The position numbers were made by a program, and so were the translations under genes. A DNA stretch of 64,000 bases, from assembly GCA_903885605.1 (NCBI GenBank), contig CAISJD010000137.1, positions 1 to 64,000 on the forward strand. Direction: 5' to 3'. Below are positions 1-13,278 of the stretch, one piece after another. Every line of letters starts with the position of its first letter. The first letter of the stretch is position 1. The stretch is from an uncultured Chthonomonas sp. GTDB taxonomy: Bacteria > Armatimonadota > Chthonomonadetes > Chthonomonadales > CAJBBX01. The notes beneath the pieces are model-generated. The model was not told the origin of the DNA. It was given only the letters and a program-made list of their open reading frames with translations, and ran no database searches.

Positions 1-5
1 CCGGA

Positions 6-25
6 CTCGGGCACGGAGGCCCGAG
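6..25. other. GC-rich hairpin at window edge
   Basis: A 7-bp inverted repeat (CTCGGGC / GCCCGAG) with a 6-nt loop lies downstream of the phage-module genes on the minus strand. It could be a weak terminator or part of an intergenic repeat. No U-tract follows, and the rest of the context is outside the window. Confidence 0.3.
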
Positions 26-63
26 CCACCGGAGAGGTTCTCACCCAGTCAGCCACCCGGCCG

Positions 64-122
64 TGCACCCGCTCACCCCTGCACCCCTTCACCCCCTCAC
101 CCCCTCACCCCCTCACCTCCTC
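64..122. repeat. C-rich tandem repeat (CACCCCCT-like units)
   Basis: About seven imperfect 7-9 nt units of the type CACCCCCT / CACCCCTG follow directly after the stop codon of the last phage-module gene. On the minus strand the array reads as repeated GTGAGGGG. It is not coding in any convincing frame. It may be a slippage-prone tract; I see no function. Confidence 0.6.
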
Positions 123-453
123 ACGCCGTCCGCCCTGCCTGCACCGTGAGGAGCACCGCGTCGGTGCGGCCCTGGTCGGTGCCTGTCACGTTGTAGGTGT
201 GGCCGCCGGTGGTGAGGCGGTCGCCACCGCGGATGTCGGCGTCGTACGGGAAGTGGAACTGCCAGAGCGTGACGCCCTCGAGGAGGCCCGAGTCGCCTCG
301 GGTGACTGACCGCTTGGGGCCGAGGCCGCAGGGGTGGGAGCCGACGGCCACCCAGCTCACCGTGAGCGGCTCCCAGCGCAGGACCTGGGCGGTTTCGGGC
401 ATCCAGCGGAGGACCTCGGCGCGCATTCGGGCGAGTTCCCGCGTGCTGAGCAT
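121..453 (-). CDS. Phage head-tail stopper-like small protein
   Basis: This 110-residue protein is the last gene of the head module within the window. Size, position directly after the connector-like gene, and a C-terminal beta-rich part (GGDRLTTGGHTYNVTG) fit a head-closure or stopper protein such as the SPP1 gp16 / DUF6093-like families. That assignment rests mainly on context. The ATG follows a good Shine-Dalgarno (GGGGAGG, 5 nt spacing), and the gene begins 12 nt after the previous stop. No catalytic motif is expected or seen. A minor tail protein is an alternative. Confidence 0.55.
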   Translation of the reverse strand: MLSTRELARMRAEVLRWMPETAQVLRWEPLTVSWVAVGSHPCGLGPKRSVTRGDSGLLEGVTLWQFHFPYDADIRGGDRLTTGGHTYNVTGTDQGRTDAVLLTVQAGRTA

Positions 454-465
454 GGTGGCCTCCCC

Positions 466-987
466 TCAGGCGCTGATGGCGACGCGCGCCCGGCGGCGCA
501 TGGCACGGGCGGCCGCGAAGAGCCGGTCGGCCGCGGCGCCGCGGGCGAAGGACTGGTCGCCGGACTTGAAGTCGTACTCGCGAGCCAGGCGTGCGGCCCA
601 GGCCTCCAGGGCGGTGGAGGCGGCGAGGTGGATGTCGTAGGTCTTGCCGAGGATGTGGATCGGTTCGTCCTGCGAGGACGCGAAGGTCCAGTGGCCCACG
701 GCGTGGTCGGACGTAGCGGGCGTGAGCGGCTGGTAGTCGGGGCCGCAGAGCTGGGCGTCGGCCTCCCAGTCCGTGAGGCCGTTCGGCGCGTAGGCATCCA
801 GCACGACGGCGGAGCCGCCGGGCAGGACGGTCTCCATGGCCATGGCGCGGAGGTAGCGGACGTCGGTGCGGGAGTGGTCGAGGAGGTCCTGCAGCTCGTC
901 GTCGCTCCAGGTCTGGTCGGCGCCGGCGGGGTCGCCGATGAGGGCGCGAAGGCGGGCGATGATCGCCTGCATGGTGGGTCTGGGCAT
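466..987 (-). CDS. Phage head-tail connector-like protein
   Basis: This 173-residue protein has an N-terminal helical region (QAIIARLRALIGDP, then WSDDELQDLLDHSR) typical of gp6/gp15-type head-tail adaptors that dock under the portal. A C-terminal helical part (TALEAWAARLAREYDFKSG) follows. The start at 987 is set by GAAAGGAGACC, 6-7 nt upstream; the longer reading frame upstream lacks such a site. It lies between the capsid gene and the stopper-like gene, the normal order for siphovirus and GTA head modules. Family call by pattern and context; no search was run. Confidence 0.6.
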   Translation of the reverse strand: MPRPTMQAIIARLRALIGDPAGADQTWSDDELQDLLDHSRTDVRYLRAMAMETVLPGGSAVVLDAYAPNGLTDWEADAQLCGPDYQPLTPATSDHAVGHWTFASSQDEPIHILGKTYDIHLAASTALEAWAARLAREYDFKSGDQSFARGAAADRLFAAARAMRRRARVAISA

Positions 988-1053
988 GTTCGGTCTCCTT
1001 TCGAGGCTGCGGGCCGGTCCGGCGCAGCGGGCACGCCGGACCGGCCCCAAGGG

Positions 1054-1911
1054 CTACGAGGAGGGCTTGTTGGCCGTGAGCAGGGCGAGGGCCGTGGGGC
1101 GCACGACCTTGGCGCCGTAGAGGTGGAGGCCCTTCACGGCGTCGGCGAAGCGGCGCTCGACGCGGTAGGCCTCCAGCTTGCGGAGCTGCCCGGCGAAGGT
1201 CCAGGCCTGCGGGACGCCGGCGAGGATCTTGTACTTGGCGCCGGAGGTGTTGGGCACGCTGTTGCTGACCAGCACCTGGAAGCCGGCCGCCTGGCCGACG
1301 ACGCCGTTCATGAGGACGGAGGTCGCCATGGGCGTCACCTGCTTGACGAAGCGGTCATCCTTCTGCAGGAGGCCGTGGGCCCAGGGCGGGAGGACCACCC
1401 AGCGGCCGGTGCGCGGCACGTTGTTCTCGTCCAGCAGGACGCAGAGGTCGACCAGGCGCTCGTAGAGGCTGGTGGCCGTGGGCGTGATCGGCGAGGCGTC
1501 GGAGCCGATGCTCGTGGCCGACGAGACGTCGGTATAGAGCGCGGCGGCGAAGCTGTCGGCGTCGTCGTTGAGGGCGTAGGCCGCCTCGTCCATGGCGGCA
1601 TCCATCACCTTGGGATGCTGCTGGGCGGCGTCCAGGTCGTCGACCTGGAAGTTGAAGCTCCGGGCGCGGCTGATGAGCAGCGTGGTCTGGCTGTCGCTCA
1701 GGGCCTGCGGCGCGGAGAGGTCCACGTTGCGCGTGTAGTCGCTGACGGTGACGGCGCCGATCCAGTTGATGCGGACGGTGTCGCCCTTCTCGCGGATGTC
1801 GCCCTGGAAGTCGCGGTTCATGACGCCGGGCTGCGTGTAGACCTGCACGCGGTGGAGGCTCTGGAGCAGGCGGGCGGCCCAGACCTCGGGGATGAAGTTG
1901 TCGAGTGCCAA
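1054..1911 (-). CDS. Phage major capsid protein (P22/HK97-fold type)
   Basis: The 285-residue product starts with MALDNFIPEVWAARLLQSLH, has the RDFQGDIREKGDTVRI segment and a region rich in alternating helices and strands (FNFQVDDLDAAQQHPKVMDA). This resembles P22 coat-like major capsid proteins of tailed phages, which form the icosahedral shell on a scaffold. No protease-type delta domain is visible at the N-terminus. The gene follows the scaffold-like gene by 33 nt and has an AGGAGA-type Shine-Dalgarno (GAGAGGAGAAGC). The reading frame is intact with no stop or frameshift, so the protein may still be made. Confidence 0.75.
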   Translation of the reverse strand: MALDNFIPEVWAARLLQSLHRVQVYTQPGVMNRDFQGDIREKGDTVRINWIGAVTVSDYTRNVDLSAPQALSDSQTTLLISRARSFNFQVDDLDAAQQHPKVMDAAMDEAAYALNDDADSFAAALYTDVSSATSIGSDASPITPTATSLYERLVDLCVLLDENNVPRTGRWVVLPPWAHGLLQKDDRFVKQVTPMATSVLMNGVVGQAAGFQVLVSNSVPNTSGAKYKILAGVPQAWTFAGQLRKLEAYRVERRFADAVKGLHLYGAKVVRPTALALLTANKPSS

Positions 1912-1944
1912 GTTGCTTCTCCTCTCTTCGGATGGTTGACGGGG

Positions 1945-2343
1945 CTAGCCGCGCAGTGCGATCTGCACGGCGTCCCAGTCGGCGTTGATCTCATCGGCGG
2001 TCATGCGGCGCACGTCGTCGCGGGTGAGGCGGCGGCGGGACGCGGCGGGGTTGGCGGCGGTGGCGGGCTCGGAGGTCCGGCCGGCCAGCCACGGGCGCTT
2101 GCGGGCCATGTCGGCCAGCAGCGCGGGGAGGTTGACGGGCCGGCCGTCGTCGCCGGTCTGCACCGCGGCGCGGTCGAGCAGGCGGACGGCGGCGTCCTCG
2201 TCCACGAGGCCCAGTTCGCGGGCCGCGCGGGCGGCCTCGGCGGCGAAGAGGGCCTCGCGGAGCTGAACCTGCAGGTCGGCCTCGCGGGCCAGCGCCGCGG
2301 CGAGGGCCTCGTCGGCGGCGGGCGGGGGTGCGGCATCGGGCAT
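1945..2343 (-). CDS. Phage scaffold-like protein
   Basis: This 132-residue, Ala/Arg/Asp-rich, mostly helical protein has an N-terminal coiled-coil-prone stretch (LAREADLQVQLREALFAAEA) and a charged C-terminus ending DEINADWDAVQIALRG. It precedes the capsid gene, where scaffolding proteins normally lie. The frame stays open further upstream, but the ATG at 2343 has AAAGGAG with 7-8 nt spacing and is preferred. A short basic C-terminal segment (RRRLTRDDVRR) could contact the coat protein. The role is inferred from composition and position. Confidence 0.55.
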   Translation of the reverse strand: MPDAAPPPAADEALAAALAREADLQVQLREALFAAEAARAARELGLVDEDAAVRLLDRAAVQTGDDGRPVNLPALLADMARKRPWLAGRTSEPATAANPAASRRRLTRDDVRRMTADEINADWDAVQIALRG

Positions 2344-2376
2344 GGGAAGGCTCCTTTCCGGGAGGAATGGGACGGA

Positions 2377-2416
2377 CACACGGACGAACACGGACCGGCA
2401 CGGACGAACACGGACA
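2377..2416. repeat. Dispersed ACACGGAC repeat, copy 1
   Basis: Four spaced units of the ACACGGAC / CACGGAC type fill the gap between the scaffold-like gene and the 114-residue protein upstream of it. The same unit recurs at 13307-13332 and 24477-24560. It lies in a non-coding gap inside the otherwise tightly packed phage module. Confidence 0.7.
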
Positions 2417-2428
2417 GAGGGGCGGGTT

Positions 2429-2773
2429 CTAGATGCCCGGCTCGCGGAGGGCCATGAGGGCTCGGGTCTGGGCCCAGCTCCAGGGCAGGCCCACACGGGC
2501 GTCGGCTCCGGGCTCGCTGTCGCTCATGTGGCGGCCGGAGGCTTCGTCGGCGATGACCCAGCGGATGGGCGCCTGGGCGGCGGCCAGGGCCGTCAGCATG
2601 GCCAGGCGCAGTGGCTCGTCGGCCACCAGGTCGGCCACGCGCCACGGTGCGCCCTGGGCGTCCAGCACGCGGGCGCCGAAGGTCGCGGCGGCCTCGGGAC
2701 CGGCGACGGCCTCGGCGAGGGCGTTGGCCCCCGGTGCGTCCTCCTCCGGCACCAGCACGGTGACACGGTGCAT
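2429..2773 (-). CDS. Small phage-module protein of unknown function
   Basis: This 114-residue protein starts MHRVTVLVPEEDAP. It is translationally coupled to the preceding LamG-like gene: the stop and this ATG overlap as TGATG, and an AGGGGAGG Shine-Dalgarno lies within the end of that gene. The sequence is mixed alpha/beta with no motif I recognise. An 85-nt gap containing the ACACGGAC repeat separates it from the scaffold-like gene downstream. By position it should be a minor virion or assembly protein. Confidence 0.55.
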   Translation of the reverse strand: MHRVTVLVPEEDAPGANALAEAVAGPEAAATFGARVLDAQGAPWRVADLVADEPLRLAMLTALAAAQAPIRWVIADEASGRHMSDSEPGADARVGLPWSWAQTRALMALREPGI

Positions 2774-3552
2774 CAGATGCCTCCCCTGGCGCGGAGCCAG
2801 GCCGCCAGGCGGGCGCGGTCCTGCAGCCCGAGGGCGCCCTGGCAGACGACGAGCGACTGCAGGTAGCCGTTGAGCGGGTAGAAGAGCGTGCCGCCCCGGT
2901 CGAGCATGCCGACGCAGCAGGTGTTGAAGAGCGCCGCGGCCACGTCGAGGTCGGCGGTGACGCCCGGCTCGGAGCCCTCCAGCGTGTTGCGGCCCACGTA
3001 GCCCGGCGTCTCGCCCTGCACCCAGATGAGCGCGTGGGGCGAGCCGACGCCGACATCCGGCCCGGCGCACTGCTTCGACGTGCCGCAGACGCGGAGCTGG
3101 AACGCGCGGCCCAGGTCGGTGAGGCCCGCGAAGGCGTAGTAGTCGGAGGCCGACAGCGTCCTGCCGAGCCCGAGTACCGAGCCGAACGATCCCGTGGCCG
3201 AGGGCCGGAAGAGCGCCGCCACGGTGAAGGGCGTGTCGGTCCCGGTGAGGAGCGGGGCCAGCCCGTCGACGCGGAGGCAGTCGTCCACCGCGAAGAAGAC
3301 GCCGGGACGGCCGCTGGGCGAGATGGCCCCGCCGCCGGTGAGCTGCGTCTTGTAGGTGGGCCGGGCGGCCGGCGAGCCCTGGACGGCGGCGGAGACGACG
3401 CCCGCGCCGCTCCAGTCGGCCCAGCCGGCCACCGAGGCGCCGTCGGCCGTGCCGTCCAGCGCGGCGGCGTCAAGCCAGAGGACCACGCCGGGGAGGCTGC
3501 GCGGCGTCCAGGAGCTACGGGCGCAGAGCAGCGTGAGGAGCGCGGCGCTCAC
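2773..3552 (-). CDS. LamG/concanavalin-like protein in phage head module
   Basis: This 259-residue protein begins with a GTG at 3552 that overlaps the upstream stop as GTGA. Its core has the pattern of concanavalin A-like (LamG) domains: GVVLWLDAAALDG near the start, WADWSG, TPFTVAALFRPS, a DYYAFAGLTDLGRAFQLRV strand region, and a C-terminal helix QDRARLAAWLRARGG. LamG-like domains bind carbohydrates or act as structural spacers in phage fibre and decoration proteins. It has several cysteines. Finding it between portal and scaffold genes is unusual, because tail-tip or decoration functions are usually encoded later. Virion decoration or receptor binding is an inference. Confidence 0.6.
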   Translation of the reverse strand: MSAALLTLLCARSSWTPRSLPGVVLWLDAAALDGTADGASVAGWADWSGAGVVSAAVQGSPAARPTYKTQLTGGGAISPSGRPGVFFAVDDCLRVDGLAPLLTGTDTPFTVAALFRPSATGSFGSVLGLGRTLSASDYYAFAGLTDLGRAFQLRVCGTSKQCAGPDVGVGSPHALIWVQGETPGYVGRNTLEGSEPGVTADLDVAAALFNTCCVGMLDRGGTLFYPLNGYLQSLVVCQGALGLQDRARLAAWLRARGGI

Positions 3553-3893
3553 AGCTGCCTCGCGTGGAGCTGGACCGTGCGCTCGGCGGCCTGGGCGACG
3601 GGCGTCGCCGAGGTCCCGCTGCGGACGCGGAGGTAGCGGACGCGGGCGAAGTCGGCGGGCGGGAGCAGGACGCAGCGGCCGGCGGCGGCCTTGACGGTGT
3701 ACTCCGTGCCGTCGGCGGAGTGGAGGTTCATCCAGCCGCCGAGGCCGTCGCCCACCTGGAAGGTGAGGTCGGCGGCGGTCCAGGCCGAGGGCAGGCCGAT
3801 CATGAGGACCGTGGCGCCGCCCGTGTCGACATCGGCGCTGACGCTCTGGCCCGAGGCGATGACCGCCGGGAAGAGCACGAACTTGGAGACCAT
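3549..3893 (-). CDS. Small beta-rich phage-module protein
   Basis: This 114-residue protein, MVSKFVLFPAVIASGQ..., is strongly beta-rich (TFQVGDGLGGWMNLHS, ARVRYLRVRSGTSATPV) and ends at a GTGA overlap with the LamG-like gene, so the two are translationally coupled. A GAAAGGAGCG site lies about 8 nt before the ATG. The pattern is seen in small phage structural proteins of unknown role. Decoration or fibre-attachment protein is a guess from its partner gene. Confidence 0.55.
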   Translation of the reverse strand: MVSKFVLFPAVIASGQSVSADVDTGGATVLMIGLPSAWTAADLTFQVGDGLGGWMNLHSADGTEYTVKAAAGRCVLLPPADFARVRYLRVRSGTSATPVAQAAERTVQLHARQL

Positions 3894-3907
3894 ACGGGTC
3901 GCTCCTT

Positions 3908-4126
3908 TCAGGCGCCGCGAAGGGCGCGGAGGTCGGCTTCGACGGGCGCCCAGAGGGCCTTGAGGGTCTGGACCTGGGCGGCCAGGGCGGGGTCCATCTG
4001 CATGGCGGCCTCGCCGCGGGCGCGGAGGACCGGGTCCGCCACGGCGGCGTCCAGGGCGCGCTTGAAGAGGTCCCAGTCGATCATGAGCCGGGCCACGAGG
4101 CCCAGCTTGCGCAGGATGCTTCTCAT
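3908..4126 (-). CDS. Small helical phage-module protein
   Basis: This 72-residue, mostly helical protein starts MRSILRKLGLVARLM and has a strong GGAGGAGAG Shine-Dalgarno directly before the ATG. It follows the portal stop by 12 nt. I do not recognise a family; its amphipathic helices and small size suggest an assembly or structural accessory. Confidence 0.5.
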   Translation of the reverse strand: MRSILRKLGLVARLMIDWDLFKRALDAAVADPVLRARGEAAMQMDPALAAQVQTLKALWAPVEADLRALRGA

Positions 4127-4138
4127 CTCTCCTCCTTC

Positions 4139-5359
4139 TCAGGTCGTGGCGGCGTCGGGCGTGTCGTCCTCGGGCAGCGGGTCGGGCCAGTGGAGCCGCA
4201 CGCCCAGGCGGCCGGTCGGCAGGCCGGGGGCCAGGGCATCGGCGGCCACGGTGAGCGCGGCCAGCGAGACCCGGCGGACGAGGTCGCCGTAGAGCAGCCG
4301 CTTGGTCATGGTCTTGTCCAGCAGCGGGCGGTAGAGGATCCTCAGGGCCGAGCCCGAGAGGCGTCCCATGCCGTCCATCCGGCTTCCGGTGGCCTCGGGC
4401 ACGCGGGTGATCTCGTGCAGGGCCTCCTTGAGGCGGGTGAACATGGAGAGCGACGCCGAGAGGTCGCCGCGCATCTCCAGGCTCCCCACGGAGCAGTCGG
4501 GCGAGGGCAGGAAGAGGATGCCGTCCTGCTCCAGGTCCAGGTCGGTGCGCCGGGCGCCGGTGATCCAGAGCCTCGGGAAGGCGTGGAGCCGCAGGATGCG
4601 GGCCATGCTCCCCATGACCTTCTCCAGGTCGCCGCAGAGCTGGAGGACATCGGGCTCCAGGTCGCTGACGCCCCAGTAGGCGTTCGGCGCGGGCAGGTTC
4701 TGGCAGGCGACGAGCGGAGGCCACGGATAGGGCCACGCCCGCACCGACCTCGAGGCCCAGCCGCCTCCGCCGGACGGCCTCTCCATGTCGCGCTCCACCC
4801 AGCGCGCGCCGGCCGGGTCGAGGCACCAGGCGCGGTCGGCCCGGGCCGCATCGCCCTCGGTCCAGCAGACCCGGTATCCGTCGATGCGCTCCACGTCATC
4901 GGCGGCGGATCGGACCCAGACGGCCCGCGGGTCCGGCGCGATGATGCGCGGCAGGCCCTCCTCGGCGCCCTGCGGGGCCTCGCGGCTGATGCGTGCGAAG
5001 GCCTGCCCGCAGACGGCGCCCGCCACGGCGAGCCGGTGCAGGAAGAGGTCCTTGTGGTTGGCCAGCCAGACGCGGTCCAGCAGCGCCTGGGCCTCGGTGA
5101 GCGCGGCGGCATCCTCGGCCGCGCCGGGCGCCATGACGGCCTCGATGCCCAGGCCGCGGCCCACGAGGAAGCCGACGCCGGCGTCCACGATGAGGCGTGC
5201 GAAGCTGAGGCGCACGTTGTCGTCGTGGCCCCAGCGGTCGACGGCCAGCGGCCGATCCGCGCGGCCGTAGTAGGCCTCCCAGGCGCGGTCCATGGCCGAC
5301 CGGTGGGCCAGCTCCTCCCAGCCGGGCGGGGCGCCCGGGTCCCACAGCTGCTTGCTCAA
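4139..5359 (-). CDS. Phage portal protein (SPP1 gp6-like)
   Basis: This 406-residue protein has the features of SPP1 gp6-type portals: N-terminal LWDPGAPPGWEELAHR, a stem/wing region with NVRLSFARLIVDAGVGFLVG and IIAPDPRAVWV, and a late segment EITRVPEATGSR, RLSGSALRILYRPLLDKTM, equivalent to the crown entry. Portals form the dodecameric DNA channel that binds terminase. The start is TTG at 5359, chosen because GGAAAGGAGGGG ends 6-7 nt upstream; the ATG ten codons earlier has no such site. The protein is slightly shorter than SPP1 gp6. No terminase gene precedes it. Confidence 0.75.
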   Translation of the reverse strand: MSKQLWDPGAPPGWEELAHRSAMDRAWEAYYGRADRPLAVDRWGHDDNVRLSFARLIVDAGVGFLVGRGLGIEAVMAPGAAEDAAALTEAQALLDRVWLANHKDLFLHRLAVAGAVCGQAFARISREAPQGAEEGLPRIIAPDPRAVWVRSAADDVERIDGYRVCWTEGDAARADRAWCLDPAGARWVERDMERPSGGGGWASRSVRAWPYPWPPLVACQNLPAPNAYWGVSDLEPDVLQLCGDLEKVMGSMARILRLHAFPRLWITGARRTDLDLEQDGILFLPSPDCSVGSLEMRGDLSASLSMFTRLKEALHEITRVPEATGSRMDGMGRLSGSALRILYRPLLDKTMTKRLLYGDLVRRVSLAALTVAADALAPGLPTGRLGVRLHWPDPLPEDDTPDAATT

Positions 5360-5386
5360 GTTGCCCCTCCTTTCCGGGCAGACGCG

Positions 5387-5425
5387 CAAAAGGGGACCGC
5401 CTCCCGGTTGGGAAGCGGCCCCCTT
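5387..5425 (-). terminator. Intrinsic terminator between DUF3467 gene and portal
   Basis: A 16-bp stem (arms 5390-5405 and 5410-5425, two G-T-type mismatches) is followed on the minus strand by TTTT at 5388-5391. It ends the DUF3467 transcript and lies about 30 nt before the portal start codon, so it also insulates or attenuates the phage module. Confidence 0.7.
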
Positions 5426-5463
5426 GATGGGTCGTCTGTGTCCTGTCGGTTCAGGCTTCGGCG

Positions 5464-5784
5464 CTACACCTCGCCGGCCATGTCGTCCTGCACGCCCAAA
5501 TCCTTGTAGAGCCCCTCGGGCAGGATGATGGTGCCGATGCGGCGCTCATACTCCTGCACGTTCTTGCGGAGCAGCAGGGCCATGATCTTGGCGTGCTGCG
5601 GGCTCATGCGGACCCGCACGGTCGTCTGCGGCGGCCGGTCCTGCGCCTGCATGACGCCGAAGTCCAGCGTAAATCCGTAGACATTTGTCATAAAGTTCAC
5701 GGAGTCTGCGTAGAACTCCGGGGTTTCGTCCATATCCTCAAACTCCACATCGCCCTCCGTGGACCCGTCTGTCGTGTCGTCCAA
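5464..5784 (-). CDS. DUF3467 family protein
   Basis: This protein of about 106 residues contains the DUF3467 pattern: an N-terminal FYADSVNFMTNVYGFTLDFG strand pair, then TTVRVRMSPQHAKIMALLLR and NVQEYERRIG. DUF3467 proteins are small, widespread and of unknown function. The TTG at 5784 is chosen because GGAGGGG lies 5-6 nt upstream; a later ATG at DMDETPEF is possible. The acidic N-terminal tail (DDTTDGSTEGDVEFEDMDE) is probably disordered. The gene has its own terminator and probably belongs to the chromosome rather than to the phage module. Confidence 0.7.
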   Translation of the reverse strand: MDDTTDGSTEGDVEFEDMDETPEFYADSVNFMTNVYGFTLDFGVMQAQDRPPQTTVRVRMSPQHAKIMALLLRKNVQEYERRIGTIILPEGLYKDLGVQDDMAGEV

Positions 5785-5882
5785 CGAGACCCCTCCAATA
5801 TATAGCCCGTGGCGGAGGCCCAATATCAACAAGCCGGCCGAAAATCGCCCCAAAATCGCGTCCGGCGGCCTGTTTTGGGCCT

Positions 5883-7433
5883 CTAGCCTGCCAAAGCGAC
5901 CGCCGCCTGGGCCGCAAGGGCGTCCAGGATGCGGGCGTGGTCCTGCGAAAAGATTTCGTGTTCCTCGCCTAAAACCTGGATGGCTCCGACCACTTTTCCG
6001 TGGAGTTTCATGGGTGAGATGACCGCGCGGGTGGCCGTCGACCTGACCTCTGATTCGTCGTAGACCGTCCCATCCTCCTCCACGGTGATGTTGACCGTCG
6101 AGGTGGCGGTGGCCGCCGCGAAGTCGTCGAAGATGATGGTCTTGCCCGACCGGAGCACCTGGCTCTGCGCCCCCATGCCCTCCGGTTGCAGCTCGATGGG
6201 CGGCAGTTCCGAGACGTCCATGCGCCCCTCTGTGGACCAGCCGTAGAGGCATCGGATGAGGCCGTCCTCCTGCGTGTACCGCGACACGAGGAACATGAAG
6301 CCGGGCAGCATCTGGGTGATGGCCCGGTGGAGCAGCGCGAAGATCGTCTCGGGATCCTCGGTAACCGCGAGTTCGGACGTGACCTGATGCAGCGCCTCCA
6401 TTTCGCGGCCCCGGGCTGCCAACCGGCTCTCGGCCTCGGTGCGCTCGGCCAGCTCCGCGGCCAGGCTCTGGGTGGCCCCCGTGCTGTCGATGGCCGCGCC
6501 GGCGATGGCGGCGAAGGGCATCAGCGCGTCCATATCGGCTTCGGTGATGGGCCGATCGCTGAGCAGGTTATCCACCGTGATCGCCCCGACGATGCGCTCG
6601 CCGGCCTTCAGCGGCACCGCGAGGTGGTGGTGGACGCCGGACATGGTGCCGCCTGCCGGGATGCGGTGCTCGGCCTCAAAGTCGGTTGTGAACGAGTAGG
6701 GTATCTCGCCGCGCATCAGCCGGGCAAGCGGGTACCCAGGGGTCCTGGCCAGATCGATGGACGCTCCTATGAACTCCTCCACCTGCCCTTCGCGGTTCGT
6801 GCCCCAATAGGCGCGGAGGATACAGGTCGGCGAGTCGTAGAGGAAAACGGCGCCCCGGTCGAACCCGCAGACGGTGGTCACCGCCCCGTGGACGATCTGC
6901 AGCACGGTGCGCAGGTCCCGGCCGGCGTAGATGGCCGCGGCCACATCCATGACGGCTCGCAGCCTGCCCATCTGGCCTTCAAGGCTTCGCGCACGCTCAG
7001 CGACCTGCTCCTCGAGATGGGCGCGGTGCCGCTCGTTCTTTTCGGTCAGCACACGCTTCTGGCGCAGCACATCGGCGAGATCGGAGGCGGCGCCCACGGC
7101 CCGCACGATGGCCTCCTTGTCGACGGGCTTGAGGAGGAAGTCATAGGCACCGTGCTGCACGGCCTCCTGGGCGGTCTCCAGCGTGGGTGCGCCCGTGATG
7201 ATGATGACCTGGGCGTCGGGTAGCTCCCGGCGGATGTCGCGCAGCAGGTCCAGGCCGCTGCCCTGGGGCATCACCACGTCCGTTACGACGATGTCGGGCC
7301 GAAGCTCCAGCGCCAGCCTGAGGCCGTCGATGGGGTTATCGCAAGATGTGACGGAATGCCCCGCCCCACGCAGGAAGTGGGACAGGGTGATACGTATCCC
7401 CGACTCGTCGTCCACCAAAAGGACATTGGACAT
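5883..7433 (-). CDS. Response regulator with two GAF domains
   Basis: This 516-residue protein has a receiver domain (residues 1-120): acidic pocket D8/D9, phospho-acceptor D52 in VVTDVVMP, T79 and K101 in LLKPVD. A coiled coil (about 125-155, EKNERHRAHLEEQVAERARS) and two GAF domains (about 160-320 and 350-515) follow. No DNA-binding, GGDEF, EAL, HD-GYP or kinase output domain is present, so it may act by binding a small ligand or a partner protein. The first GAF keeps VPLKAGERIVGAITVDN, a typical beta-strand block. No kinase gene is adjacent. It starts 28 nt after the GH106-like gene on the same strand. Confidence 0.8.
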   Translation of the reverse strand: MSNVLLVDDESGIRITLSHFLRGAGHSVTSCDNPIDGLRLALELRPDIVVTDVVMPQGSGLDLLRDIRRELPDAQVIIITGAPTLETAQEAVQHGAYDFLLKPVDKEAIVRAVGAASDLADVLRQKRVLTEKNERHRAHLEEQVAERARSLEGQMGRLRAVMDVAAAIYAGRDLRTVLQIVHGAVTTVCGFDRGAVFLYDSPTCILRAYWGTNREGQVEEFIGASIDLARTPGYPLARLMRGEIPYSFTTDFEAEHRIPAGGTMSGVHHHLAVPLKAGERIVGAITVDNLLSDRPITEADMDALMPFAAIAGAAIDSTGATQSLAAELAERTEAESRLAARGREMEALHQVTSELAVTEDPETIFALLHRAITQMLPGFMFLVSRYTQEDGLIRCLYGWSTEGRMDVSELPPIELQPEGMGAQSQVLRSGKTIIFDDFAAATATSTVNITVEEDGTVYDESEVRSTATRAVISPMKLHGKVVGAIQVLGEEHEIFSQDHARILDALAAQAAVALAG

Positions 7434-7461
7434 CGCTCTGAGCTTACCCGACGGCTCCAGA

Positions 7462-10400
7462 TCAGTACCACGCCAGCCTCACGCCCGTGGGCCCGAAGGG
7501 CTCGATGCGGATCTGGTTGGCTCCCTTTCGGAGCAGGCGGCCCACTTCGAGCCGCATGGGTGCGCCGATGACGCCGCCGGCGTCGCGGCCGTTGACGGTG
7601 ACGCGGGCGGCCTCCTCGGGCGCGACGCCGGCCATCTCCAGGTAGACCGGGCCGGTGGGCGCCGATTGCAGGACGACGCCACCCGTGAAGGGAGCCGCGC
7701 GGGCAGGGCTGAGCGTGAGCCCGCCGCCCAGAGCGCCCCAGGGCCCGCCGCCGAAGGGCGCGGCGACCACGGCGGCCGGCCATTCGTTGGCCTGGCCGGG
7801 ACCGGCCTCGGGGTCAAGGGCCACGGCGGCGGCACGCCATGAGGAGTCTGTGCGGAGGACGACGCGCCGGGAGCCCTCCACATCCACCGTCAGCGCACCC
7901 ACGAAGCCCGCTGGGCTGGGCTTGTCCGTGGCGTTGACGGCCTCCACCTGCACGAGGTTGGGGCCGGCCTGCAGGCAGGCGGCCACGTCGAGCCGGGCCG
8001 GGCTGCGCCAGCCCTCGCCGCTATCGCCGCCCCGGCCCGCGTCCTTACCGTTGATGATGAGGCGGAACGAGTTGTCCGCGGTGCCCACGAAGAGCGCCGA
8101 GCGGATGCGGCCGGCGGGCACGTCCAGCATCGTGGAGAAGGAGCATGGCCCCGGCTTCGCCGATGAGGCGGGATTGCCGCCGGCGGCCCAGATCCACTCC
8201 GAGCCCTTCAGCGCCTCGCCGATACTGCCGGCGGCGGCGGCGGGAGCCGCCTGCGGCTTGCGGACGACCTTGCCCGGCACTGGGACCACGCGGAGCGGCG
8301 CGGCGCCCGGCTCCAGCCGCCGCGGCAGGGGCCTGGCCGACGGCGCGAAGATGATCAGGCGGCTCTCCAAAGGCTCCATGGTGAGGTCCAGAACGACGCG
8401 GTCACCCTGGCGCCGGAAGGGGACCGAGTTCACCTCGGCGCGGATGGGGTCCCAGACCTCAGGCACGCCGGGGGCGGTCACGGCGAACTTGAAGCGGGTG
8501 GCGCGGCCCTTGTGCATCTGGTTGGCGACATAGAAGAGGTCGCGGCCGGCCTTGTTTCGGTGGACGACGTGGAGCCAGTTCCGCGTGTCGCCGGAGAGGA
8601 CGTCGAGCGTGGGCTTGACGCCGGCTTCGGACAGGACCTGGCGGAGCATCTTCGGCGTGGGAGCGGCGGGGAGCAGGTAGGCGCGGCCCCCGGCGGTGTT
8701 GGCCGCGCAGGGCTTCAGGCCGGGCAGGGCCGAGGCGCCCCAGACCTGGCGGACGAGGGCCTGCACCTCGGCGTCAGGCACTCCCATATCCGCCGAGCGG
8801 CTGGGCAGGAAGCCATGGCCGAGGACGATGCCGCCGGCCAGGTAGAAGTCGCGCACCTTGCGCAGGACCGCCGCGGGGAGGGTCTCCACGCCCGGCACGA
8901 CGATGACGCGGTAGCGCTCTGTGCGGAGCTGCAGCTCGCGGCCGGAGACCTTCGCGGGGCTCTGGAGGACGTCGTAGGGGATCCAGTCGCAGTCGTAGAG
9001 GGCGTCCTGCAGGGCCTCGCTCATCTGCTCGGGCGTGATGTACTTCCCGGCGTGGGCGCTGTTGCCGAGGTAGAGCAGGGCCACGGGGCAGACGTGCCGG
9101 CCGCCGGTGAGGAGGCTGCTGAGGCGGGAGGCGTAGTCCGCGTAGACGCGGTAGAGCGGCCAGCGGGGCTCGTAGCCGCCGTTGTAGAAGTAGGGCGGGC
9201 AGTCCGTATCGAACGGGGCGCGGACGTTGAACGAGTGCGGGATCATGAAGTTGAGGCCGGAGACGAACATGTGGTCCGTCCACCACTTCATCTCGGGGTA
9301 GGTCAGGTCCTGGCCGCGGGCGCCGAAGATCTCCACCATGGCCACGTCGTCGGGCTTGCCGTAGGCGTGGCTGATGCTGCTGCCCAGCTTGGGCGTCTGC
9401 CAGATCGGGTTGTCACGGGTGAGGCGCTTGCCCCAGACGAACTGGTCGAAGACCGCGTCGATGCCGCCCATATCGTTGTACTTCATGAGCTGCATCATGT
9501 TGCCCGCGCAGATGTCGGGGTTCAGGTAGCCGTTGCCGTGCTCAAGGAAGTGGCCGATGGAGACGACGCGGTGGCGCCGGCACCAGGCGGAGATGCCGCC
9601 GTAGAGGGTGCGGCCCCAGGCCTCGGCGTAGGCGTCCTGGTACTGGTAGGCCGCGGCTGTCTGGGCCGCTCCCGCGAGCTTGCGGGTCTTGGCGAGGAGG
9701 GCGGATTTCCAGTCGATCTTGCGCTCGGCCAGCACGCGCATGACCTCGGTCCCCCAGTCGCCGTGCGTCTCGGGCTCATCAAAGAAGAAGCCGGCGATGG
9801 TCTTGCCGAAGTCGGCGCCGAAGCGGTCGAAGTGGGGCTGGTAGACCGTGCGGAGGTACCAGTCCACGGCATCGCGGCTGGCGCCGTCGACCAGGTAGCG
9901 GCTGCCGCTGATGCGCGGCTCCCAGGCGAACTGGACCACCTGCCATGCGCCGTCGGGGGCGTCCCAGACGATGCGGCGGGTGCCGGGCATGGGGCGCAAC
10001 TCGGTGAGAGAGGCGGGATCGAGGCCGCCGGGCAGGACGCGGGCCGCCACGGCTCCGATGCGGCGATCCGGCTGGAAGACGGGTATGTCCACGCGCTCGC
10101 CGGCGCGGGCGTCGGTTACGCGGGTGACGAGGCGCTTGCTGCCGTAGCGCTCGGGCACCTTGCCGCCCACCTCGCCGGAGGGCCACCACTTCTCGTCGAA
10201 GATCCACATGCGGAGGTTGTGCTTCTTGGCGGCCTCCAGGCAGATCGCCAGGTCGCGGAACCAGCCGGGGCCGAGCCAGTCGGTATGCGGCCGCGACTCC
10301 ACCGTGAAGGAGCCGTTGCCGCCCTCGGCGACCCTGGCCACGTAGTCGCGGATCTGCTTGGGCGTGTCGTCACCGTGGAGCCAGAAGAGCGGCCCGGTGA

Positions 10401-10536
10401 GACGGCGCTGGGCCATGGCGGGGCGGCGGAAGCCGGCCTCCAGGGCGACCCACGGGTCGGCCGCGCGAGACGGCGAGGCGGCGAGGCCGGCCAGGGCGAG
10501 GAGCAGAAGCGGGCGGAGCAGGCGGCACGGCAGCAT
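7462..10536 (-). CDS. Secreted GH106-like glycoside hydrolase
   Basis: This 1024-residue protein has a Sec signal peptide (MLPCRLLRPLLLLALAGLAA, cleavage near SRA-AD). The large catalytic region resembles PF17132 (GH106, alpha-L-rhamnosidase-like): FWLHGDDTPKQIRDYV, MWIFDEKWWPSGEVGGKV and GFFFDEPETHGDWG, in which an acidic residue is probably catalytic. A C-terminal galactose-binding-like beta-sandwich (about 750-1024) ends in a domain with VYLEMAGVAPEEAARVTVNG. The ATG at 10536 has CTGGAGG 7-8 nt upstream; the open frame further upstream is spurious. It is divergent from the GH2 gene, so both probably act on the same plant or microbial polysaccharide. Substrate is not proven. Confidence 0.75.
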   Translation of the reverse strand: MLPCRLLRPLLLLALAGLAASPSRAADPWVALEAGFRRPAMAQRRLTGPLFWLHGDDTPKQIRDYVARVAEGGNGSFTVESRPHTDWLGPGWFRDLAICLEAAKKHNLRMWIFDEKWWPSGEVGGKVPERYGSKRLVTRVTDARAGERVDIPVFQPDRRIGAVAARVLPGGLDPASLTELRPMPGTRRIVWDAPDGAWQVVQFAWEPRISGSRYLVDGASRDAVDWYLRTVYQPHFDRFGADFGKTIAGFFFDEPETHGDWGTEVMRVLAERKIDWKSALLAKTRKLAGAAQTAAAYQYQDAYAEAWGRTLYGGISAWCRRHRVVSIGHFLEHGNGYLNPDICAGNMMQLMKYNDMGGIDAVFDQFVWGKRLTRDNPIWQTPKLGSSISHAYGKPDDVAMVEIFGARGQDLTYPEMKWWTDHMFVSGLNFMIPHSFNVRAPFDTDCPPYFYNGGYEPRWPLYRVYADYASRLSSLLTGGRHVCPVALLYLGNSAHAGKYITPEQMSEALQDALYDCDWIPYDVLQSPAKVSGRELQLRTERYRVIVVPGVETLPAAVLRKVRDFYLAGGIVLGHGFLPSRSADMGVPDAEVQALVRQVWGASALPGLKPCAANTAGGRAYLLPAAPTPKMLRQVLSEAGVKPTLDVLSGDTRNWLHVVHRNKAGRDLFYVANQMHKGRATRFKFAVTAPGVPEVWDPIRAEVNSVPFRRQGDRVVLDLTMEPLESRLIIFAPSARPLPRRLEPGAAPLRVVPVPGKVVRKPQAAPAAAAGSIGEALKGSEWIWAAGGNPASSAKPGPCSFSTMLDVPAGRIRSALFVGTADNSFRLIINGKDAGRGGDSGEGWRSPARLDVAACLQAGPNLVQVEAVNATDKPSPAGFVGALTVDVEGSRRVVLRTDSSWRAAAVALDPEAGPGQANEWPAAVVAAPFGGGPWGALGGGLTLSPARAAPFTGGVVLQSAPTGPVYLEMAGVAPEEAARVTVNGRDAGGVIGAPMRLEVGRLLRKGANQIRIEPFGPTGVRLAWY

Positions 10537-10656
10537 GGGCGGACCTCCAGGGCGGTGTGGCATGGCGCAACGTTGGCCGCGAGGCGGCATGATTCCTGCT
10601 TGCGACGGCGATGAGGGGGTGAAGGGGCGGGGGCGCATGGGTCGGAGGCATGGTGC

Positions 10657-10665
10657 TGCTACAAT
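10657..10665 (+). promoter_or_regulatory. Extended -10 promoter for GH2 gene
   Basis: TGC-TACAAT forms an extended -10 element about 49 nt before the beta-mannosidase start. No convincing -35 is seen. Confidence 0.4.
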
Positions 10666-10713
10666 GCCGGGCGGCGCCGACGCGCCGCTAACCCCGCCCC
10701 CTGGAGAGCCACC

Positions 10714-13278
10714 ATGCACCATCCCGCACCGTCCACCGCGACCCGCACGCTCGACGCCGGCTGGCGCGTCCGCGAGCTGCATCCCCGCGGCACGTCGCCC
10801 TGCAGCGAGCTGGGATGGCTGCCCGCCGAGACGCCGGGGCATGTGCACCTGGACCTGATGCGCGCCGGGGTGATCGAAGACCCCTTCAAGCGCATGCACG
10901 AGCGCGGTTGCGCCTGGGTGGATGAGACCGACTGGGTCTACGAGACCCGCTTCGACGTGGATGACCCCGAGGCCCACGCGATCCTCCGCTTCAACGGCCT
11001 GGACACGGTGGCTGAGATCACGCTGAACGGCGCCGAGCTCGGCCGCACCGCCAACATGCACATCCCGCACGAGTTCTGCGTCGACGGCCGGCTCCAGTGC
11101 GTCGGGAACGTGCTGACGATCACCTTCGCCTCCGCCCTGCGCACCGGCCGCGAGCTGCGGCAGGCTTGGGCCGACGCGGGCAACGACGCGCCCGGGCCGA
11201 ACTGGTTCTCCTGGGGCCCGCGCTCCTTCGTGCGCAAGGTGCAGAGCATGTTCGGCTGGGACTGGGGCCCCGAACTGGTCTCCTGCGGCATCTGGCAGCC
11301 CGTGGAGCTGATCACCATGCCCGTGGCCCGGATCACGGACCGGCGCCACGCGCCGGCCTTCGACGCCGACGGGCCGGCGCGGGTCACGGTCACAGTGGAG
11401 GTGGAGCGCGCACCCGGTCAGGCCGATGCGCCGCTGGATGTCGTCATCGGCCTCCCCGCGCTGCTGGCTCCCACGGACCCGGAGGGCGACGCCGAACGCC
11501 TGCCCACGGGCCTGGCGGCGCAGCGCGTGAGCGTGCCGTGCGGCGACGGACGGGCGACCGTTTCCGCCACGTTCGAGATTCAGGAGCCGAGGCTCTGGTC
11601 GCCCTGGGAGCTGGGTGCGCCGAACCTCTACGAGCTCGGCCTTCGCCTGGAGCGCCCCGACGGCGCCCTCGTGGAGCCTGAGCGGACGCACCGCATCGGA
11701 CTGCGCCAGGTCGAGCTGGTGCGCGAGGCCGAGGCAGACGGCGGCGAGTCGTTCCGCTTCCGCATCAACGGGTGCGACCTCTTCGCCAAGGGAGCGAACT
11801 GGATCCCCGCCGACAGCTTCCCGTCGCGCGATCCGGGCGGCGTGGCGCTTCGCATCGACGGCCAGATCGCCGCGGCCCGGCGAGCCGGCATGAACATGCT
11901 GCGCGTCTGGGGCGGCGGGCTCTATGAGGGCGAGGCCTTCTACAACGCCTGCGACCGGGAGGGCATCCTGGTCTGGCAGGACTTCGCCTACGGGTGCGCC
12001 TACTACCCGGACACCGGCCGGTTCGCCGAGGTGGCGGCCCACGAGGCGCTGGTCAACGTGCGGCGCATCGCCGGGCACGCCTCCATCGCCCTCTGGTGCG
12101 GCAACAACGAGAACCACATGATGCACGCCGACGCCTGGGGCGGGCGCGAGAACCGGCCCGCGCGCTACCTGGGCGAGAGGCTCTACCACGAGATCCTGCC
12201 GAGCGTGGTGGCCCAGGAGGACCCCGCCACGCCCTACTGGCCCTCGTCGCCCTACGGCGGCGCCTCGCCCAACGCCTCCGAGGCGGGCGATCGGCACAAC
12301 TGGGATGTCTGGCACGGCAGCGGCGACTGGACGCGCTATACCGAGGACAACGCCCGCTTCCTCTCGGAGTTCGGCTTCGCGGCCTCCTGCGGCATGGCCG
12401 CCTGGGAGGGTTGCCTGGCCCCGGCGGACAAGTCGCCCCGCTCGGCGGCCGTGCGCTGGCACGACAAGACGCAGAAGGGCTATGAGACCTACATGGGCTA
12501 CCTTCGCGACTTCGTGCCGGAGCCGCGCACGCTCGAGGACCTGGTCTACTTCAGCCAGATCAACCAGGCCGAGGCGCTGAAGTGCGGCATCGAGCACTGG
12601 CGGCGGCTCAAGGGGCGTTGCTGGGGCGCCATCTTCTGGCAGTTCAACGACTGCTGGCCCGTGCAGTCCTGGGCCGTGGTGGACCACGCGCTGGAGCCGA
12701 AGCTCGCCTACTACGCCGCCCGCCGTTTCTACGCGCCGCTGCTGGTCTCGCTGGTGCGTCACGGCAACACGGTGGAGGCGCACGTCACCAACGACCGCCT
12801 CACGCCCGTCAGCGGCGGGTTGCGGATGACACTGGCGACGTTCGAGGGCGAGGAGATCGCTTCATCCTCCGCGGCGGCGTCTGTACCGGCCGGCGGAACC
12901 GGCTGCGCGGGCACGCTCGACATGACTGCCGCAACCGGGCGTGAGCGCCACGTGGCCGTCCATGCCCGCCTGACGGAGCCGGACGGGGCGGAGCAGATCA
13001 ACCTCCTGCTTCTCGCCCGCACGAAGGAGTTGATCCTGCTCGATCCGGGCCTCACGGTGGAGGTAGCCCAGGGCGCCGACGGTCCCGAGGCCTACCTGGC
13101 GGCCAAGCGCTTCGCTGCCTACGTCTGGCTGCGGCTGGAGGGCGAGGGAGGCCTGAGCCGCGGGCTGGAGATCGGCGACAACGGCTTCCACCTGCTGCCG
13201 GGCGAAATCCGCCGAGTGGCGCTGCCCAAGCTCGGGCTGGAGGAGCTACGCGCCAGGCTACGAGTGCGGACGCTGTAG
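10714..13278 (+). CDS. Beta-mannosidase, GH2
   Basis: This 854-residue cytoplasmic-type enzyme lacks a signal peptide. It has the GH2 order: sugar-binding jelly roll (1-200, with WVYETRFDVDDPEA and LRFNGLDTVAEITLNG), Ig-like domain, TIM barrel (about 340-640) and C-terminal sandwich. The acid/base is E466 in LWCGNNENHM and the nucleophile is E552 in FLSEFGFAA. GWDWGPELVSCGIW is typical of beta-mannosidases rather than beta-galactosidases. It hydrolyses terminal beta-mannosyl residues from oligosaccharides. The ATG is preceded by GGAG at normal spacing. With the divergent secreted GH106-like enzyme it could finish degradation of imported oligosaccharides. Confidence 0.88.
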   Translation: MHHPAPSTATRTLDAGWRVRELHPRGTSPCSELGWLPAETPGHVHLDLMRAGVIEDPFKRMHERGCAWVDETDWVYETRFDVDDPEAHAILRFNGLDTVAEITLNGAELGRTANMHIPHEFCVDGRLQCVGNVLTITFASALRTGRELRQAWADAGNDAPGPNWFSWGPRSFVRKVQSMFGWDWGPELVSCGIWQPVELITMPVARITDRRHAPAFDADGPARVTVTVEVERAPGQADAPLDVVIGLPALLAPTDPEGDAERLPTGLAAQRVSVPCGDGRATVSATFEIQEPRLWSPWELGAPNLYELGLRLERPDGALVEPERTHRIGLRQVELVREAEADGGESFRFRINGCDLFAKGANWIPADSFPSRDPGGVALRIDGQIAAARRAGMNMLRVWGGGLYEGEAFYNACDREGILVWQDFAYGCAYYPDTGRFAEVAAHEALVNVRRIAGHASIALWCGNNENHMMHADAWGGRENRPARYLGERLYHEILPSVVAQEDPATPYWPSSPYGGASPNASEAGDRHNWDVWHGSGDWTRYTEDNARFLSEFGFAASCGMAAWEGCLAPADKSPRSAAVRWHDKTQKGYETYMGYLRDFVPEPRTLEDLVYFSQINQAEALKCGIEHWRRLKGRCWGAIFWQFNDCWPVQSWAVVDHALEPKLAYYAARRFYAPLLVSLVRHGNTVEAHVTNDRLTPVSGGLRMTLATFEGEEIASSSAAASVPAGGTGCAGTLDMTAATGRERHVAVHARLTEPDGAEQINLLLLARTKELILLDPGLTVEVAQGADGPEAYLAAKRFAAYVWLRLEGEGGLSRGLEIGDNGFHLLPGEIRRVALPKLGLEELRARLRVRTL

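Follow-up and report, generated by a model that had tools for sequence, protein, structure and literature searches.

Introduction

Encapsulins are domesticated HK97-type shells without portal, scaffold and terminase. Capsid-forming phage-inducible chromosomal islands (cfPICIs) are said, after Alqurainy et al. (cited in PMC11389934), to follow a plan of own heads and packaging genes without tails. The genes of gene transfer agents (GTAs) can be dispersed: genes of the Rhodobacter capsulatus GTA (RcGTA), like the tail genes of the GTA of Brachyspira hyodysenteriae, are reported to be located outside the main cluster (PMC6209664). In phage SPP1, an adaptor and a stopper are reported to shut the portal once packaging is done, and capsids filled with DNA but lacking tails could be isolated (PMC9701221). 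Here we describe a phage-type head module at the left end of a stretch of 64,000 nucleotides (hereafter the window; G000:C137:1-64000) from an uncultured Chthonomonas sp. of the order Chthonomonadales (Armatimonadota); the contig C137 (67,338 bases) starts at window base 1. Literature searches in open-licence papers on DUF3467, Armatimonad and Chthonomonadales prophages, GTAs and capsid-forming satellites yielded no description of this locus.

The locus is very probably a domesticated phage head-and-packaging module that is vertically inherited and held by selection. A domesticated capsid was among the options of a preliminary description made from the window alone, and this option gains from the presence of the same module and neighbours in three congeners, from purifying selection and from the family-wide occurrence reported below. 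We are evenly divided on the reading as a whole, i.e. a domesticated, inherited head-and-packaging module of the order Chthonomonadales that probably makes DNA-filled, tailless, GTA-like capsids.

Gene content of the head module

Nine adjoining, tightly packed genes on the minus strand (121-5359) lead from a portal to a probable stopper. Read from right to left along that strand, and beginning with the adjoining DUF3467 gene, the order is as follows (aa, amino acids; dN/dS, ratio of nonsynonymous to synonymous substitution rates):

5464..5784, minus strand: DUF3467 gene adjoining the module; PF11950 at 1.2e-12, over the cut-off
4139..5359, minus strand: portal protein, 406 aa, SPP1 gp6-like; SPP1_portal at 8.5e-10, over the cut-off; phrog_64 at 8.6e-16
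3908..4126, minus strand: 72-aa protein with no named function; near-invariant among congeners, dN/dS 0-0.05
3549..3893, minus strand: 114-aa protein; by position, in the slot of the head-spike base protein of related genera
2773..3552, minus strand: fibre-like virion structural protein, candidate head fibre, 259 aa; phrog_10356 at 1.8e-9
2429..2773, minus strand: second 114-aa protein with no named function; look-alikes (by eye) adjoin the fibre gene in relatives and in a second locus of G002
1945..2343, minus strand: probable scaffolding protein, 132 aa from ATG; PF06810 at 2.4e-4 (21.6 bits against a cut-off of 35, thus weak and below cut-off); phrog_2303 at 0.017
1054..1911, minus strand: major capsid protein (MCP), 285 aa; phrog_267 at 8.4e-69; PF25209 at 1.5e-12, over the cut-off
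466..987, minus strand: probable head-completion (adaptor) protein, 173 aa; phrog_1732 at 4.4e-6 (a family without known function), phrog_399 at 0.08, and position
121..453, minus strand: probable head-completion (stopper) protein, last gene of the module, 110 aa; Phage_HCP at 0.022, below the cut-off, and position

The portal and capsid recognised in the preliminary description are borne out by profiles over their cut-offs. Its scaffold-like protein, connector and stopper exist as genes, but their names are weaker, being drawn from matches below cut-off, from a family without function or from gene order; the counterpart of the stopper in a related genome, G011, matched the head closure family phrog_501 only at 0.045. 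Four genes between portal and scaffold (3908-4126, 3549-3893, 2773-3552 and 2429-2773) had been left unnamed. A profile built from six cassette MCP sequences matches the solved capsid protein 8e16 at 1.8e-42, and searches by sequence gave no solved-structure matches for the portal and the large terminase subunit (TerL, see below). The portal gene starts with TTG behind a Shine-Dalgarno sequence. The 259-aa fibre-like protein had no match in Pfam, and its fold prediction was too poor to use (pLDDT 30). Stops seen in some capsid and portal matches are the last codons of those genes, as judged from gene coordinates.

Window positions 1-34, 72-128 and 2372-2416 are occupied by short repeats that are scattered through the genome in many copies, the last of these falling within the head operon between two genes; window positions 1-3000 had 48 matches in the genome, the self-match included.

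Synteny, selection and descent

The same set of nine genes stands in the same order in the window genome (G000) and in G001 and G002, i.e. in three species of one genus (g1), and an insertion restricted to a single strain was rejected. For the proteins compared with the congeners G001 and G002 (capsid, portal and fibre), identity was 89-98%. Among the three genomes, dN/dS ratios calculated by the Nei-Gojobori method were 0-0.25 for seven of the nine head genes (portal, 0.11-0.17); the other two, the scaffold and the second 114-aa gene, had 0.08-0.41. Synonymous rates (dS) of 0.11-0.35 in the head genes compare with 0.12-0.25 in five flanking genes, for each of which a single pair was measured; the response regulator next to the locus was faster (0.51-0.65) and DUF3467 slower (0.07-0.10), with no amino-acid change at all among congeners. 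All nine head genes are under purifying selection, with a dS close to that of most neighbours. The G+C content at third codon positions (GC3; 0.959 in the module versus 0.909 in 46 other window genes) points to host-like codon use.

The DUF3467 gene is indeed followed by ordinary genes, as initially described: a response regulator with GAF domains, a GH106 glycosidase, a GH2-type glycosidase and a Uma2 protein lie upstream of it. These right-hand neighbours (DUF3467, response regulator, GH106) are common to all three congeners. The left-hand neighbours, where the window contig stops, are shared by G001 and G002 and comprise two convergent genes (225 and 279 aa), a gene of 141-144 aa and one of 615 aa, the last followed in G002 by a signal-peptidase-like gene (names by eye). 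The stopper gene is the last one of the module in these two genomes too, with ordinary chromosome beyond. Since their module ends at the same gene, the module in the window is not cut off by the contig end, and the truncated prophage that had been considered initially finds no support, also in view of dN/dS values of 0-0.41. No tail, lysis or integrase genes were seen among the genes read left of the module in G001 and G002, no search being aimed at lysis genes, and reading the locus in the three congeners revealed neither an integrase nor a satellite regulator. Attachment-site (att)-like repeats of at least 13 nt were absent from the approximately 450-530 nt of flank on each side in G001 and G002. 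Neither a complete prophage to the left nor a strain-specific insertion with att sites, the two situations that would have contradicted the preliminary description, was encountered in these relatives. The locus does not behave as a decaying prophage, though the TerL gene of G002 is broken.

The terminator reported between DUF3467 and the portal gene exists as a terminator-like hairpin, but it is not special because, of the window's 17 co-directional gaps that measure 60-400 nt, 7 have a strong hairpin at most 50 nt from the start that follows. Hairpins between DUF3467 and the first head gene were also found in most of 11 folded stretches. A role as attenuator was rejected, such hairpins being commonplace in the genome.

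Beyond the genus, portals of the window's type (type I; entry into the tree required a match to the portal profile at 1e-20 over at least 250 residues), including that of G007, form one clade (support 98/99) with no sampled phage within it, compatible with the accC tree. The MCP tree joins genera g1, g5, g8 and the metagenome contig L093 (93/72), with G007 left unplaced and not joined to the other cassettes. Both trees were read by eye; they contain unlabelled duplicate rows of the same loci, so that their change counts (3 for the MCP and 6 for the portal) overstate the scatter. The accC tree groups G007 with the type I genera in one clade (95/91) within the family (f1), with genomes carrying a second head type (type II, see below) outside that clade; this tree represents one gene, omits G003 (only a paralogue was found) and includes eight genomes of family f3. 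Between g1 and the other type I genera, the type I capsid is 62-65% identical and accC 71-76%. Judged from these comparisons, the locus appears to display the vertical inheritance under purifying selection that is asked of a GTA.

The displaced terminase

The preliminary description stressed that terminase genes are absent. This holds next to the portal but not for the genome, where a TerL gene is open from end to end at C68:4903-6357, on a separate 7-kb contig. It matches phrog_2 at 2.3e-28 and keeps, in the alignment, the positions of Walker A, Walker B and the nuclease aspartates. A 104-aa gene ahead of it sits in the slot of the small subunit and has no convincing family match. The TerL of G001 is likewise intact, and the G000-G001 pair has a dN/dS of 0.085. 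Across the 12 genomes of family f1 (G012 was not part of this search), a TerL profile built from two related genera detected the large subunit in 11; the twelfth, G007, has a large subunit (phrog_2, 3.2e-25) and a small one (phrog_4044, 1.7e-32) before its portal, so that a large terminase is found in all 12. In G006, G011 and L093, TerL lies inside the cassette between capsid and adaptor genes, and G009 has the same gene order around TerL on another contig. The terminase has been displaced and exchanged, not lost.

An ATPase resembling HEC-01A-type defence proteins (3.6e-20) and a 179-aa gene (together at L073:3198-4835, on G000:C68) stand beside the displaced TerL of G000 and are not found beside that of G001; they might represent a defence insertion.

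Two head types and the DUF3467 partner

A head of one of two different types was seen in 10 of the 12 f1 genomes. Three of them, G004, G005 and G008, have DUF3467 and a terminase found with the same profile next to a different, Mu-type portal (Portal_Mu at 2.2e-68 in G004 and 1.6e-26 in G005, where it is a fragment at the contig end), and the capsid protein is also different in the two whose contig extends that far, G004 and G008 (phrog_1005 at 4.1e-58 in G004). This type II cassette extends to G012 (family f2), with DUF3467 and an intervening major facilitator superfamily (MFS)-like gene, and to G017 and G024 of family f3, in which DUF3467 was not found. Between the three families, type II capsid proteins share 70-77% identity, and the nearest viral contig among the 80 retained out of 180 confirmed ones reaches 58%. 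Because the accC tree nests the type I clade within the family and leaves type II outside, these patterns suggest that the window's head type took the place of an older one with a Mu-type portal, present in three Chthonomonadales families, and that the DUF3467 gene next to it was conserved. In G030, a portal gene stood alone in the stretch read.

The window's DUF3467 subfamily is present in 10 of the 12 f1 genomes, always adjoining a portal or terminase gene, and stands beside head or packaging genes in all 11 f1 and f2 genomes where it was found; it is lacking, as assembled, in G003, which is 78% complete, and in G010, whose terminase sits at a contig end. Of 291 genomes of the phylum, 35 contain PF11950 in any form, and 10 of these belong to f1. 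A general link of DUF3467 to heads was rejected since, of 18 other places fetched, only that of G012 adjoined head genes. Sixteen of the 25 other genomes are represented, G055 by two places, and the remaining place is a second copy in G009; about 4 kb were read by eye at each, and the gene caller had missed DUF3467 itself in 5 of the 18. Only the f1/f2 subfamily appears to be linked to head genes. The fold prediction for DUF3467 was too poor to use (pLDDT 51), and a literature search on it turned up only unrelated work.

Several further genes accompany these cassettes. In genera g5 and g8 the locus adjoins parA and parB (L022:8310-9960, L024:3271-4948, L025:5327-6965); ParA and ParB were confirmed for G011, and a ParA-type ATPase adjoins DUF3467 in G007. 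DNA polymerase IV-like genes (IMS, 4.7e-38 and 1.1e-36) lie within type II cassettes of f1 and f3 (L066:15197-16480, L068:14438-15763, L360:7735-8940, L362:3276-4658) and are 50-58% identical between the two families, and an NAD-dependent epimerase gene is also located inside the cassette in G004 and G017. L092 and L093, filed as viruses in IMG/VR, carry the DUF3467-portal-capsid locus and look like pieces of host loci.

Tail genes and fibres

Tail genes were searched with three families covering two kinds of gene, tape measure (PF10145, phrog_1272) and sheath (PF04984). PF10145 had no match over its cut-off in the 12 family genomes and one below it (G009); it matched 7 of 14 control genomes. 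No match to phrog_1272 was obtained in G000, G002, G005, G006, G007 and G008, and matches in G001, G003, G004 and G010 were weak (1.9e-4 to 5.0e-4), which means little given that this profile also matches 10 of the 14 control genomes, archaea included. It gave 9.0e-20 in G009 and 6.3e-10 in G011, on contigs other than that of the cassette, and 1.7e-50 in a prophage of G017. Sheath matches were limited to G007, G009 and G011 among 31 genomes, with none in G000 or G002, and no tail genes adjoined the module in the stretches read from relatives. According to these profiles, the module would be tail-free in the window genome and several relatives, not in all.

The sheath-domain matches of genus g8 (L230, G009:C152; L232, G011:C118) lie in open frames of 655-658 aa and possibly belong to a contractile injection system. 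The prophage of G017, from family f3 (L029 and L079, on G017:C215), has an integrase, a tape measure and a head related to type I; the same genome carries, apart from this prophage, a type II cassette (L360) in which no tail genes are visible.

A spike-base protein of the Rcc01079 family, known from RcGTA, is part of the cassettes of G006, G007, G009 and G011 (NF048002 at 3.3e-32 in G011), and was also detected in L093 with a home-made profile that was itself built partly from L093. NF048002 had no match in G000, so the 114-aa product of 3549..3893 was not recognised as a spike base. By eye, the fibres of G011, G009, L093 and the second G002 locus share a similar N-terminal stretch of alternating hydrophobic residues and glycines, which is less clear in G006 and absent from the g1 fibres. 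For the window module, the likeness to RcGTA in fibre and spike is suggestive only.

The second head locus of G002 (L367, G002:C178:34000-48000, positions 1-10786) has its own large terminase (phrog_38, 7.7e-72), portal (phrog_2662, 7.3e-49) and capsid (phrog_10, 4.4e-39) as well as a spike base, a fibre and a stopper-like gene, with no tail gene after it in the stretch read.

Discussion

A DNA-filled, tailless capsid is the favoured product because the genes that have been kept are those required for assembling a head, filling it and closing it. Portal, scaffold and capsid protein would form a prohead that the terminase fills with cellular DNA, after which adaptor and stopper might close the portal as in SPP1. 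Fibres attached to the capsid could let released particles stick to cell-surface sugars, and DUF3467 most likely acts together with the locus, either in the particle or in regulation. The outcome would be a tail-free GTA whose DNA is taken up by another route such as competence, or a means of DNA protection. The GTA head locus proposed initially is possible in so far as head and packaging genes and vertical inheritance are present, but a tail was not found in the window genome with the three families searched. A GTA-like particle function is put forward tentatively. More doubtful is an extension to the whole order, in which head and terminase have been kept since early Chthonomonadales, the head was once replaced beside DUF3467, the terminases came from different phages, and fibre-coated, DNA-filled capsids carry or protect genomic DNA.

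Several observations weigh against these readings. The particle and its DNA content are predictions from the genes, and the names of adaptor and stopper are weak, deriving chiefly from gene order. The g1 portals are approximately 40 C-terminal residues shorter than those of related genera in the alignment, and the portal profile match continues beyond their stop codon. In G002, TerL shares a contig with the head module at a distance of 7,740 bases, and a frame change and a stop interrupt it; either this genome may have lost packaging or its assembly is wrong. The type I TerLs are mixed with those of the phages L347 and L119 and form no clear phage-free clade. Moreover, the chromosomal site of the locus is unlike between most genera, and vertical descent beyond the genus therefore rests on the trees. 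The tail search was confined to two kinds of gene, and G009 and G011 do hold tail-like genes on other contigs. Searched with NF048002, G000 and G001 showed no spike base, and the one in G002 belongs to a different locus. Finally, DUF3467 at L263:166-486, on a viral contig of 40.6 kb, is 50% identical to that of the window; this contig also holds structural and lysin-like genes (by eye), and the subfamily may occur in phages too.

An ordinary GTA with tail genes elsewhere in the genome, too divergent to be found, would fit a locus whose terminase is likewise split off, and yet tape-measure and sheath profiles came back empty in G000 even though phrog_1272 finds the tail of the order's own G017 prophage; we consider such a GTA improbable. 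The probability is just as low for a capsid-forming satellite of the cfPICI kind, which would produce heads of its own and rely on a helper phage for tails. Head and packaging genes without tails correspond to that plan, and the locus is placed differently in different genera. Against this, neither an integrase nor a satellite regulator was seen at the locus, att-like repeats of at least 13 nt were not found in two congeners, the module keeps the same place and a dS similar to most neighbours in three species, cellular genes are interleaved in the type II cassettes, and in neither G000 nor G002 was a tape measure or sheath found that would mark a resident helper.

A capsid domesticated for another use, be it storage or protection of the cell's own DNA or poisoning the assembly of incoming phages with head parts, would explain head genes without a tail under purifying selection, a head type that was apparently replaced once with terminases from different places in the tree, and a broken terminase next to open head genes in G002. 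However, the terminase is intact and under selection in G000 and G001, the portal and head-completion genes needed for DNA passage are retained, and PADLOC gave no match at 0.01 for portal, MCP, TerL and DUF3467. Such a use is unlikely, somewhat less so than a satellite. Old prophage remnants, in which structural genes decay slowly and the signal of selection is a trace of past phage life, are very unlikely: the broken TerL of G002, the shorter g1 portals and the solitary portal gene of G030 would be expected of them, but type I or II head genes are open in 10 of the 12 family genomes (the G005 portal being a fragment at a contig end), dN/dS is low, codon use by GC3 is host-like, and a type I capsid 62-65% identical where accC is 71-76% identical is not fast-changing.

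A locus of head and terminase that several families of one order have retained, with no tail next to it and with one head apparently exchanged for another beside a conserved DUF3467, would show that selection can act on the making of packaged capsids as such, and whether DNA packaging without injection benefits cells becomes testable. Its product may be a new, tail-free form of the particles that some bacteria use to handle or share DNA. DUF3467 would gain a functional setting, and L092 and L093 are a warning that fragments of such host loci are filed as viral in virus databases.

Comparison with known systems

Like RcGTA and other GTAs, the locus consists of phage-derived head and packaging genes that are chromosomal, apparently vertically inherited, under selection and split over loci. 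Related cassettes share the Rcc01079-family spike base with RcGTA, and some related fibres have, by eye, an N-terminal stretch like the head-fibre anchor of RcGTA. It differs from GTAs in that no tail was found in the window genome, in belonging to another lineage, and in the two head types that occur beside the same DUF3467. With cfPICIs it shares own head and packaging genes and the lack of tail genes at the locus; in contrast, no integrase or att repeats were found, it is vertically inherited at a site that is fixed within the genus, and no tailed helper was found in the window genome. Phages with a D6E-type head (phrog_267), named after the deep-sea thermophilic phage D6E, have a homologous MCP (58% identical in D6E), and the G017 prophage has a homologous MCP (50% identical) and portal. 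Both D6E and this prophage carry tail tape-measure genes, and the G017 contig an integrase too, neither of which was seen at the cassettes. Finally, in contrast to encapsulins, portal, probable scaffold and terminase are retained, which sets the module outside their definition.

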